Part shown: piece by piece, positions 25,120-34,302 of the stretch
Numbering within the stretch: the stretch's first letter is position 1
How the letters are laid out: every line of letters begins with the position of its first letter
Notes under the pieces: generated by a model
The model's input: only the letters and a program-made list of their open reading frames with translations
Databases searched by the model: none
What the model was told of the DNA's origin: nothing
Program-made: the position numbers and the translations under genes
NCBI RefSeq assembly: GCF_016907235.1
Contig: NZ_JAFBBO010000001.1
Coordinates: forward strand, 3,844,001-3,908,000
Direction of reading: 5' to 3'
Length of the DNA: 64,000 nucleotides
From: Oerskovia jenensis
GTDB taxonomy: Bacteria; Actinomycetota; Actinomycetes; Actinomycetales; Cellulomonadaceae

Positions 25120-27285
25120 TCAGCCGAGCTGCTCCCGCAGGAACCGGTAGTGGATCGCGGCCATGTGGGCGGCCTGGGCGTTGTTCGCGGCGCCGCCGTG
25201 GCCGCCCTCGATGTTCTCGTAGTAGGTCACGTCCTTGCCGGCCGCGAGCATCTTGGCGGCGAGCTTGCGGGCGTGACCGGGGTGGACCCGGTCGTCCTTG
25301 GTCGACGTCGTGAAGAGCACGGGCGGGTACTCGCGGTCGGCGTCGAACAGGTGGTAGGGCGAGAACGTCTTGATGAACTCCCACTGCTCGGGGTCGTCCG
25401 GGTCGCCGTACTCGGCGGCCCACGACGCCCCGGCGAGCAGGTGCGTGTAGCGCAGCATGTCGAGCAGCGGGACACCGACGATCACGGCGCCGAAGAGCTC
25501 GGGGTACTGCGTGAGCATGTTCCCCGCGAGGAGGCCGCCGTTGGAGCGGCCCTCCATGCCGAGGTGCTCGGGGGTCGTGATGCCGCGGGCGACGAGGTCG
25601 CGCGCGACGGCCGCGAAGTCCTCGTACGCCTTGTGGCGCTTGGCCTTGAGGGCTGCCTGGTGCCAGGCCGGGCCGTACTCGCCGCCGCCGCGGATGTTCG
25701 CGACGACGTACACGCCGCCGTCGGCGAGCCAGGCCCGTCCGAGCCCGCCCGAGTAGCCAGGGGTGAGCGAGACCTCGAAGCCGCCGTAGCCGTAGAGCAG
25801 CGTGGGTGCGGCGCCCACGGGGGCGTCGTCCGTCCCGGCGGCGGCGCCGGCGGCCTCCGGGCGGACGAGCTCCTCCCGCCCGACGACGAAGTACGGGACG
25901 CGCGTGCCGTCGTCGGACACCGCGAAGTGCTGGTCGATGACCAGGCCCGCGGCGTCGAAGAAGGTGGGGCTCGACTTGAGCACCTCGGGCTCGGTGCCCG
26001 CGCCCACCGTCAGGAGCGAGAGCGTCGAGGGCGTGAGGTAGTCGGTCGTCACGAGCCAGACGTCGTCGCTCTCCTCGGAGTCGACCGCACCCACGACGAC
26101 CGTGCCGATGGTCGGCAGACCGGGCAGCTCGCTGCGGGTCCACGGTACGGACAGGTCCTCGGCGCGCGGAGGCGGCGTCAGCACGTGCAGGCGGTTCTTG
26201 ACGTCCTCCAGGACGTTGACCACGAGGTGGTGCGCGGTCCAGGTGGCCCCGGCGAGCGACGTCGTGGGCGTGGGCTCGAACAGGACGGTGAAGCCGCGCG
26301 CCCCGGCGAGGAAGTCCTCGAAGCGGGCCGCGAGCAACGACCCCGCGAGGTAGGTCGAGCCGCCGACGGTCCAGTCGTCGCGCAGCTCGACGAGCATCCA
26401 CTCGCGCTTGACGCCGACCTCGGCCGAGCGCGGGACGTCGATCTTGACGAGGTGCTCGTCGGGCGTGCCCGCGTCCTGGACGAGGTAGGTCTCGCTGTCG
26501 TAGAACGCGATCGAACGGCCCACGAAGTCGCGCTCGAAGCCGGGGGAGTGGGTGCGCCAGCCGAAGATGTACATGTCCTCGGGCTCGCCCTCGTACACGA
26601 CCGTGGCCTCGGTGACCGGGGTGCCGCGGCGCCAGCGCTTGACGATCCGGGGGTACCCCGAGGGGGTCATCGAGCCCGGTCCGAAGTCCGTGAAGACGTA
26701 CACCGTGTCGGTGTCGATCCACCCGAGCCCGCCCTTGGACTCCTCGCGGTAGAACCCGCCGTGCTCGGGGGCGACGAACTGCTTGGTGACGAGGTCGAAC
26801 TCGCGGGTCACGTCGGCGTCGGAGCCGCCCGGGGACAGGTCGACCAGGGCGTGGCGCCACTCGCCGCCGGGGGCGGGGCGCAGGACGCTCGCGCCGTGCC
26901 AGACCCAGCTCTGCCCCTCGGTCTCGCCCAGCGCGTCGAGGTCGAGCACGAGCTCCCACTCGGGGTGGTCGGTGCGGTACGAGTCGAGCGTCGTGCGGCG
27001 CCAGACGCCGCGCTCGTGCTGCGCGTCGCGCCAGAAGTTGTAGTAGTGCTCGCCGATCTTCGAGACGTCGGGGATCTTGTCGTCGGAGTCGAGGACCTCG
27101 CGGATCGCCTGCTCGGTAGCGGTGAACTCGCTCGTGGCCTCGATCGTCGCGGCGGTCTCGGCGTTGCGGCCCTGGACCCAGGTGAGCGCCTCGCGGCCCT
27201 CGACCTCCTCGAGCCACAGGTACGGGTCGTGCGGCGTGGTCGGCTGTCCGGTGGGCGTCTCGGTCACGGCGTTCTCAGCACTCAT
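25120..27285 (-). CDS. Prolyl oligopeptidase (S9 family)
   Basis: A 721-residue protein. The N-terminus (TPHDPYLWLEEVEGREALTWVQGRN) is the S9A opening, followed by a seven-bladed propeller and a C-terminal alpha/beta-hydrolase domain. The catalytic Ser is in GMEGRSNGGLLAGN. The Asp lies near TTSTKDDRVHPGHARKLAAKM and the His in NIEGGHGGAANNAQAA. These enzymes cut short peptides after proline in the cytoplasm; no signal peptide is present. An Ala/Gly-rich linker (EAAGAAAGTDDAPVGAAP, about residue 485) enters the hydrolase domain. It converges on GH65 and diverges from adhE. It stands alone with no evident operon partner. Confidence 0.93.
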   Translation of the reverse strand: MSAENAVTETPTGQPTTPHDPYLWLEEVEGREALTWVQGRNAETAATIEATSEFTATEQAIREVLDSDDKIPDVSKIGEHYYNFWRDAQHERGVWRRTTLDSYRTDHPEWELVLDLDALGETEGQSWVWHGASVLRPAPGGEWRHALVDLSPGGSDADVTREFDLVTKQFVAPEHGGFYREESKGGLGWIDTDTVYVFTDFGPGSMTPSGYPRIVKRWRRGTPVTEATVVYEGEPEDMYIFGWRTHSPGFERDFVGRSIAFYDSETYLVQDAGTPDEHLVKIDVPRSAEVGVKREWMLVELRDDWTVGGSTYLAGSLLAARFEDFLAGARGFTVLFEPTPTTSLAGATWTAHHLVVNVLEDVKNRLHVLTPPPRAEDLSVPWTRSELPGLPTIGTVVVGAVDSEESDDVWLVTTDYLTPSTLSLLTVGAGTEPEVLKSSPTFFDAAGLVIDQHFAVSDDGTRVPYFVVGREELVRPEAAGAAAGTDDAPVGAAPTLLYGYGGFEVSLTPGYSGGLGRAWLADGGVYVVANIRGGGEYGPAWHQAALKAKRHKAYEDFAAVARDLVARGITTPEHLGMEGRSNGGLLAGNMLTQYPELFGAVIVGVPLLDMLRYTHLLAGASWAAEYGDPDDPEQWEFIKTFSPYHLFDADREYPPVLFTTSTKDDRVHPGHARKLAAKMLAAGKDVTYYENIEGGHGGAANNAQAAHMAAIHYRFLREQLG

Positions 27286-27401
27286 GCGAACACACTAGGC
27301 GACCGATCCGCGGGACCGGGCATGCAGAGATCGTGGGGGCGACCGGCTCGCACGGGCTGCGTTCCAGGACATCTCCGGGAATCACTTGCATCTATCCGTA
27401 C

Positions 27402-27421
27402 CTTGTGAAAGTATTCACAAG
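27402..27421. promoter_or_regulatory. Rex-type redox operator upstream of adhE
   Basis: CTTGTGAA-AGTA-TTCACAAG is a perfect 8+4+8 dyad and matches the known Rex operator core TTGTGAA-N4-TTCACAA. It lies 53 bp before the adhE GTG. Rex represses fermentation and respiratory genes when NADH/NAD+ is low. A TTGCAT (27385-27390) upstream could be the -35 box of the promoter it covers. Confidence 0.88.
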
Positions 27422-27473
27422 CAAGGGAAAGACACCACGCAGACCCGGCCGCTCGGGTCACTGGAGGAGCAAC

Positions 27474-33198
<5,725 letters not shown>

Positions 33199-33263: not shown

Positions 33264-33332
33264 GTCGAGGTAGAGGTTTCCCGTCGAGGTAGAGGGCTGT
33301 GGCCCTCTACCTCGACGCAAACCCTCTACCTC
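33264..33332. repeat. GAGGTAGAGG nested double hairpin, copy R4
   Basis: Inner arms GTCGAGGTAGAGGG (33283-33296) and CCCTCTACCTCGAC (33303-33316) form a perfect 14-bp stem with a 6-nt loop. Outer arms GAGGTAGAGG (33267-33276) and CCTCTACCTC (33323-33332) enclose it. The element lies between convergent ligA and the DapA-like gene. The DapA-like coding frame runs through the outer right arm and stops at the TAG (complement of 33307-33309) inside the inner right arm. Confidence 0.88.
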
Positions 33333-34302
33333 CCGGTCCCGGCCCCGGCCCCGGCCCTGGCCCCGGCACCGGCCCCGGTCGGCGGGCCAGCACGGTCCGC
33401 AGCCCCTCGGTCTGCTCGGGAGGTGTCGCCAGGAGCGGTGCCCGCGGTGGACCGGTCGGCACTCCCAGGAGCCCGGCGAGCGCGTGGAGTCCGGCGACGG
33501 GCCGGAGGAGGGCCAGCTCACGGACGAGGGCCAGGAGCCAGGACCGCTCCACGACCGCGTCGAGGGGTCGGCGGTCGAGGTGCGCGCGGCGCATCACGAC
33601 GTACTCGTCGGGGACGAGGGCTGCGACCCCGGTGTGCCAGGCGTCGCTCGGCGGCAGGGGCGTGAAGGCCCCCTCGGTCATCGCGAGGTCGCCGCTCAGC
33701 CCCACGGCGAACGCTTCGCCCGCGACCGCGGCACGGACGGCGTCCAGGCGGGCGACCACGTCCGTCCGCCCCGCCGGGTCCTTGAGTCCCCGGAGCCGGG
33801 CGGAGCGGGCGAGGTGGGCCAGGACCTCGGGCGTCACGTCGTAACCGTTCTGGGCGGGCCGGTTGTAGAAGCACACGGGCAGGTCGGTCTCGGCGGCCAC
33901 GGTCTCGAACAGCGCCACGACCTCGTCGTCGACGAGCGGGACGTACGAGAACGGCGTGAGCACCAGCCCGTCCGCACCGCCCGCCTGGGCGGCGGCCGCG
34001 AGGCGCAGCACCTCGGCGGTCGCGGGCGCCGCGACCGCGACGTGCACCGGGACCTGCCGACCCGAGGGGGCGGGACCGGCGTCGTGCGCCGCACGGACCG
34101 CGGCGCCCACCACGGCGGCGCGCTCCTCGGGCGAGAACGACGTGCCCGCACCCGACGACGCGAGGACCGTGACGCCGTCGACCCCGGTGCGGACCGCGGC
34201 CTGCACGAGGCGCGTCGTCGTGCTCAGGTCGGGGAGCCCGTCAGGGCCCATCGGCGTGATCGGGTAGGCGAGCAGCCCGGTGAAGGGCGACGGGAACGTC
34301 AT
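33307..34302 (-). CDS. Dihydrodipicolinate synthase/N-acetylneuraminate lyase-family aldolase
   Basis: A 331-residue TIM-barrel protein. Visible family marks are the N-terminal FTGLLAYPITPMGPDG, the catalytic-loop position VLASSGAGTSFSPEER (a variant of the GTTGE block), the Tyr in LPVCFYNRPAQNGYDV, and the Schiff-base Lys in LRGLKDPAG. The barrel normally splits or condenses 2-keto-sugar or amino-acid intermediates. As the gene stands apart from lysine genes and next to the sugar region, a sugar-acid aldolase role is as likely as dapA. The C-terminus is a Pro-Gly run (GPGPGPGPGPGG) followed by RGFASR encoded by repeat R4. This tail is probably an unstructured read-in from non-coding repeat DNA. 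Confidence 0.85.
   Translation of the reverse strand: MTFPSPFTGLLAYPITPMGPDGLPDLSTTTRLVQAAVRTGVDGVTVLASSGAGTSFSPEERAAVVGAAVRAAHDAGPAPSGRQVPVHVAVAAPATAEVLRLAAAAQAGGADGLVLTPFSYVPLVDDEVVALFETVAAETDLPVCFYNRPAQNGYDVTPEVLAHLARSARLRGLKDPAGRTDVVARLDAVRAAVAGEAFAVGLSGDLAMTEGAFTPLPPSDAWHTGVAALVPDEYVVMRRAHLDRRPLDAVVERSWLLALVRELALLRPVAGLHALAGLLGVPTGPPRAPLLATPPEQTEGLRTVLARRPGPVPGPGPGPGPGPGGRGFASR

Follow-up and report, generated by a model that had tools for sequence, protein, structure and literature searches.

The transcriptional repressor Rex, which senses NAD(H), is best compared here in two described systems. In S. aureus, according to the sections of PMC2883068 drawn on here, the Rex operator is TTGTGAAW4TTCACAA and the motif is a proven Rex site at adhE; an exact copy there had the lowest of three measured Kd values, and NADH prevents formation of the complex. 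The sections of PMC5355995 that we draw on describe sites of the TTGTGAANNNNTTCACAA type that the S. avermitilis Rex binds ahead of cyd, nuo, atp and rex-hem. Our literature search turned up no work on Rex in Oerskovia or Cellulomonas. A broad comparison of Rex regulons, reported by Ravcheev and colleagues (2012), may include actinobacteria.

The Oerskovia locus described below shares features with both systems. As in the S. aureus material (PMC2883068), an exact 18-bp palindrome precedes adhE and there is a site at pflB too; however, Oerskovia is a high-GC actinobacterium, the centre of its operator reads AGTA rather than W4, and nuo is among its predicted targets. Repression by Rex and release by NADH are reported there for S. 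aureus and are predicted for Oerskovia. With S. avermitilis, as covered in PMC5355995, it has in common the consensus TTGTGAANNNNTTCACAA, the cyd and nuo targets and an actinobacterial Rex. By contrast, the S. avermitilis rex is autoregulated together with hem genes and the targets given there belong to aerobic respiration, while in Oerskovia there is no site at rex and the sites include the fermentation genes adhE and pflB. This kind of operator is already known, and the Oerskovia adhE site is probably an additional instance of it.

The adhE promoter and its palindrome

The window, by which we mean the whole 64-kb stretch of DNA that was analysed, carries adhE and its upstream region with the following features.

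25120..27285, minus strand: prolyl oligopeptidase family gene, the divergent neighbour of adhE (Pfam)
27386..27391, plus strand: candidate -35 element TTGCAT of the adhE promoter, placed by the position of TTG across family sites
27402..27421, plus strand: predicted Rex operator, CTTGTGAA-AGTA-TTCACAAG, exact to consensus and exact in 7/7 Oerskovia genomes
27409..27414, plus strand: candidate -10 element AAGTAT, inside the operator, placed by its 17-bp spacing from the candidate -35 element; weak consensus match
27463..27469, plus strand: ribosome-binding site GGAGGAG of adhE (direct sequence read)
27474..30203, plus strand: adhE, bifunctional aldehyde-alcohol dehydrogenase, 909 aa (Pfam; solved AdhE relatives)

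Read directly on the plus strand, positions 27402-27421 are CTTGTGAAAGTATTCACAAG, a 20-bp palindrome in which two perfect 8-bp arms flank the non-symmetric AGTA. The preliminary description had claimed that both halves fit the Rex consensus with extra flanking symmetry, and this is accurate: all 14 specified bases of TTGTGAAN4TTCACAA are matched at 27403-27420, with one further symmetric pair outside, and the symmetry ends at C on either side (27401 and 27422). With as many as 3 mismatches allowed, the window holds this match alone; shuffled versions of the window gave a mean of 0.08 matches, with at least one in 6 of 100 shuffles. Exact matches in the 4.45-Mb genome number 2, with approximately 0.0002 expected from mononucleotide composition. 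The CRP/GlxR pattern of actinobacteria is TGTGAN6TCACA, and the core TGTGAAAGTATTCACA at 27404-27419 (genome 3871404-3871419) is an exact match to that pattern as well.

The palindrome lies in the 188-bp gap between the prolyl oligopeptidase gene and adhE, 52 bp upstream of the adhE start, a GTG at 27474 that follows the GGAGGAG. AdhE has aldehyde dehydrogenase and iron alcohol dehydrogenase domains (Pfam), aligns nearly full length to the solved AdhE structures 6ahc and 6tqh, and is 95-98% identical to proteins of Oerskovia rustica, O. douganii and O. merdavium, the similarity by which the genome is assigned to Oerskovia. A strict scan for the sigma-70 consensus found no adhE promoter. The distance from an upstream TTG to the 18-bp core is 17 bases in 24 of the family's 36 Rex-type adhE sites, and 18 bases in 5. 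Given a 17-bp spacer, the -10 element would fall inside the operator, so that bound Rex would block RNA polymerase, although the assignment of both promoter elements is weak.

Two other reading frames of the window were noted by eye. The one at 30115-33198 resembles an NAD-dependent DNA ligase and ends in an acidic tail of near-repeats (33050-33198); the one at 33307-34302 on the minus strand is DapA-like, with a C-terminal repeat coding for GPGPGPG at 33299-33380.

Rex and Rex-type sites in the genome

The genome is a single contig of 4,453,691 bases in which a profile search found one rex gene. Its product has the winged-helix N-terminal DNA-binding domain PF06971 and the Rossmann-type domain PF02629, both over the cut-off. 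From residue 10 to residue 207 it can be aligned to Rex proteins of solved structure, with the common stretch RKDLSxxGSYGTRGVGY. Autoregulation of rex was considered and rejected, since the 9 kb fetched around the gene holds no palindrome at up to 3 mismatches.

Allowing 2 mismatches, the genome contains 11 palindromes and not one copy of the reversed pattern. By position and Pfam, seven of them, sites 1, 3 to 6, 8 and 9 below, lie upstream of or adjoin redox or fermentation genes, and the other four precede genes with no clear redox role.

Site 1, 0 mismatches: adhE
Site 2, 0 mismatches: small membrane protein
Site 3, 1 mismatch: zinc alcohol dehydrogenase
Site 4, 1 mismatch: cydAB
Site 5, 1 mismatch: FAD oxidoreductase, then nuoA and more nuo-type genes
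Site 6, 1 mismatch: radical-SAM protein, with an SdpI-type protein on the opposite side
Site 7, 1 mismatch: protein with bacterial Ig/cadherin domains
Site 8, 2 mismatches: pflB and a radical-SAM protein
Site 9, 2 mismatches: between mqo and nirB
Site 10, 2 mismatches: SRPBCC-type protein
Site 11, 2 mismatches: TetR regulator

The gene behind site 8 encodes a pyruvate formate-lyase with a glycyl-radical domain, adjacent to a radical-SAM protein (Pfam), which is in keeping with a role in fermentation. Site 11 reads TTTTGAACATGTTCAAAA and may, as a guess, be the TetR regulator's own operator. For the site at locus L012, nrdD was ruled out as the neighbouring gene by Pfam, which gives proline dehydrogenase and aldehyde dehydrogenase domains.

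The second exact palindrome of the genome precedes a small predicted membrane protein (L007:3491-4101; G000 C1:995990-996600) with no Pfam family over the cut-off, and a homologue in genus g22 (genera of the family are given here as g numbers) also has an exact Rex palindrome (L216). This protein may be an uncharacterised Rex target.

Relatives place comparable palindromes before comparable genes. Of 16 palindromes from ten family genomes, chosen by hand among the matches listed, 13 precede homologues of genes that adjoin palindromes in this genome: FAD oxidoreductase-nuo (8), cydA (2), pflB (1), zinc alcohol dehydrogenase (1) and the membrane protein (1). For the other three, no homologue was found among the 21 query proteins.

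Distribution in the family and choice between regulators

All seven Oerskovia genomes keep the adhE palindrome exactly, while the sequence immediately preceding the candidate -35 element differs strongly among them. For the wider family we surveyed, at up to 2 mismatches, the 88 genomes in which adhE has 200 bases or more of upstream DNA, leaving out of 90 the genomes G119 (152 bases) and G113 (25 bases). The adhE site is present in 36/75 genomes with rex over the Pfam cut-off versus 0/13 without it, and the reversed-pattern control is found in 3/88. G119, which is 79% complete and has no detected rex, bears a 1-mismatch site at adhE; with it added, the count without rex becomes 1/14 (Fisher 0.006, too strong a value for genomes related by descent) and the count over all relatives 37/89. 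The site is regular in Oerskovia (7/7), g8 (9/9) and g10 (7/8, or 8/9 with G119), but missing or infrequent in g9 (0/10), g20 (0/6) and g21 (2/10). Since it occurs in only 36 of the 75 genomes that have both rex and adhE, Rex control of adhE is, on the distribution of sites, not general in this family. Many of the 39 genomes with both genes and no adhE site belong to g6, g9, g14, g17, g20 and g21, and some g20 genomes have CRP-like palindromes at adhE. In a separate set of named adhE loci, 13/79 have an exact site, 5 of them Streptomyces (L061, with 28 bases upstream, was left out of 80).

The exact fit of the core to TGTGA-N6-TCACA makes a regulator of the CRP/GlxR type the obvious competitor, in which case adhE would follow cAMP and not NADH. 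The genome does encode one CRP homologue, very similar to mycobacterial and corynebacterial proteins. Presence of the palindrome across the family, however, does not follow the CRP gene; it follows rex. At up to 1 mismatch the palindrome is found in 83/102 family genomes with rex versus 2/19 without (Fisher 4.5e-9, a p-value that is too strong given that the genomes are related by descent), while a CRP homologue is present in 120/121, including all 19 without rex. The reversed pattern occurs in 3/121. In these counts rex status was set by the Pfam cut-off, with 5 genomes that have only sub-cut-off matches counted as lacking rex, and the split by rex and the genomes with no palindrome were tallied by hand. 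The same tendency is seen within genera when genomes with rex are compared with those without: 5/5 versus 0/2 in g17, 1/1 versus 0/1 in g18, 2/4 versus 0/2 in g25 and 7/7 versus 2/3 in g10. The two palindrome-bearing genomes without rex are 93% and 79% complete, and because of this rex may be missing only from their assemblies.

Other observations point the same way: the predicted targets are redox genes, and the T/A pairs outside the CRP core are retained. The core fits the CRP/GlxR pattern, but the longer palindrome tracks rex and not crp in the family genomes. Activators of the common type do not help transcription when placed over a -10 region, and a CRP protein bound at this position would not be expected to aid adhE. 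In 5/14 relatives without rex, the adhE region does carry a CRP-like site, with no more than 1 mismatch, and lacks a Rex site; elsewhere in the family adhE may therefore be under the action of CRP. For the Oerskovia palindrome, co-occurrence with rex makes a CRP site in place of a Rex site the less likely choice, and we consider it improbable. We give equally little credence to the proposal that Rex and the CRP homologue both recognise this one palindrome, with adhE answering to NADH and cAMP alike; both patterns are matched exactly and both proteins are encoded, but the co-occurrence, though compatible with an added role for CRP, tracks rex only. That the palindrome is a functionless product of chance or a relic might be argued from the majority of adhE-bearing relatives that lack it, but we reject this as very improbable on the shuffled windows, on the expected count of exact matches per genome and on its conservation, both throughout Oerskovia despite diverged upstream DNA and at the same place in g8 (9/9) and other genera.

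Taken together, these observations argue, with a probability of roughly 0.87, that the palindrome is an operator of the NAD(H)-sensing repressor Rex which overlaps the adhE promoter and is relieved by NADH. The preliminary description had proposed a Rex operator controlling adhE and had named a rex gene in the genome as a check; that gene is present, once and with both domains, and the proposal is further supported by the set of sites at redox and fermentation genes, by conservation in the genus and by the way the palindrome tracks rex. We infer binding, promoter position, NADH response and ethanol output from the sequence, and the release of Rex by NADH is carried over from work on other Rex proteins. 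While NAD+ is plentiful, a Rex dimer would bind the palindrome and, because the operator covers the presumed -10 region of the adhE promoter, would block RNA polymerase. With slower respiration and a higher NADH/NAD+ ratio, Rex would be released by NADH and adhE would be transcribed, whereupon AdhE would convert acetyl-CoA to ethanol and regenerate NAD+. Fermentation is thus most likely switched on when NADH accumulates, and the same Rex probably acts on pflB, the zinc alcohol dehydrogenase, cydAB and the nuo operon. As a redox switch, Rex at adhE is of a well-known and ordinary kind.

A second palindrome in relatives and what the wiring would mean

In 12 genomes of g3, g10, g19 and g22 (G002, G067, G009, G090, G034, G051, G100, G119, G018, G115, G058 and G094, with loci among L106-L129), the Rex site at adhE is preceded at a distance of 1-2 bp by a further palindrome, TGTGGTCNGACCACA, which is exact in 10 and has 2 mismatches in one and 3 in another. 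At up to 3 mismatches it occurs in 15/89 adhE upstream regions, against 3 for the reversed control, and the Oerskovia adhE upstream region has none. It fits the consensus GTM-N0-1-KAC that is given for the FadR subfamily of GntR regulators in the part of PMC4494728 relied on here. In eight such genomes, all 14 exact copies found genome-wide stand before adhE (7), pyruvate formate-lyase-like genes (4; Pfam was run on one, and three were judged from near-identical N-termini) or genes for small membrane proteins (3). These membrane proteins are of one look, and the one compared is 53% identical to the Oerskovia protein that has the exact Rex site.

In the genome analysed here, TGTGGTCNGACCACA occurs exactly at two places 48 bp apart, ahead of lutABC-type lactate genes and near an FCD/GntR gene.

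L189:2663-8467 (G000 C1:1669662-1675466): lutABC-type genes and FCD/GntR regulator, the latter at L189 2663-3349 on the minus strand

This regulator probably reads the two copies there. Among the genomes searched, an orthologue of the regulator was found in 11/11 carrying the double operator and in 6/11 lacking it, plus one weak 40% match. A palindrome within 2 mismatches of TGTGGTCNGACCACA lies within the 1.5-kb flanks of 10/12 orthologue loci, compared with 0/12 for the control. The occurrence of TGTGGTCNGACCACA at adhE, pflB-like and lutABC-type genes, along with this distribution of orthologues, suggests joint use of the adhE promoter by Rex and a lactate-type regulator in g3, g10, g19 and g22. 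We put forward tentatively, at somewhat less than even odds, the fuller proposal that in these relatives (12/89 adhE upstream regions) adhE is doubly controlled, with TGTGGTCNGACCACA placed over the -35 region and probably read by a LutR-like GntR/FadR regulator of lactate use, which would also have taken over pflB and the small membrane-protein gene, both of which have Rex-type palindromes in Oerskovia.

For Oerskovia, a facultative high-GC actinobacterium, the Rex reading predicts the way in which ethanol fermentation is switched on and outlines a small redox regulon. Because Rex control of adhE appears patchy in the family though rex and adhE are both common, the family would offer a natural series for the gain and loss of fermentation control. 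If the double control is real, a single fermentation promoter would respond to both lactate and NADH, and the regulatory wiring would have changed from one genus of this family to another.
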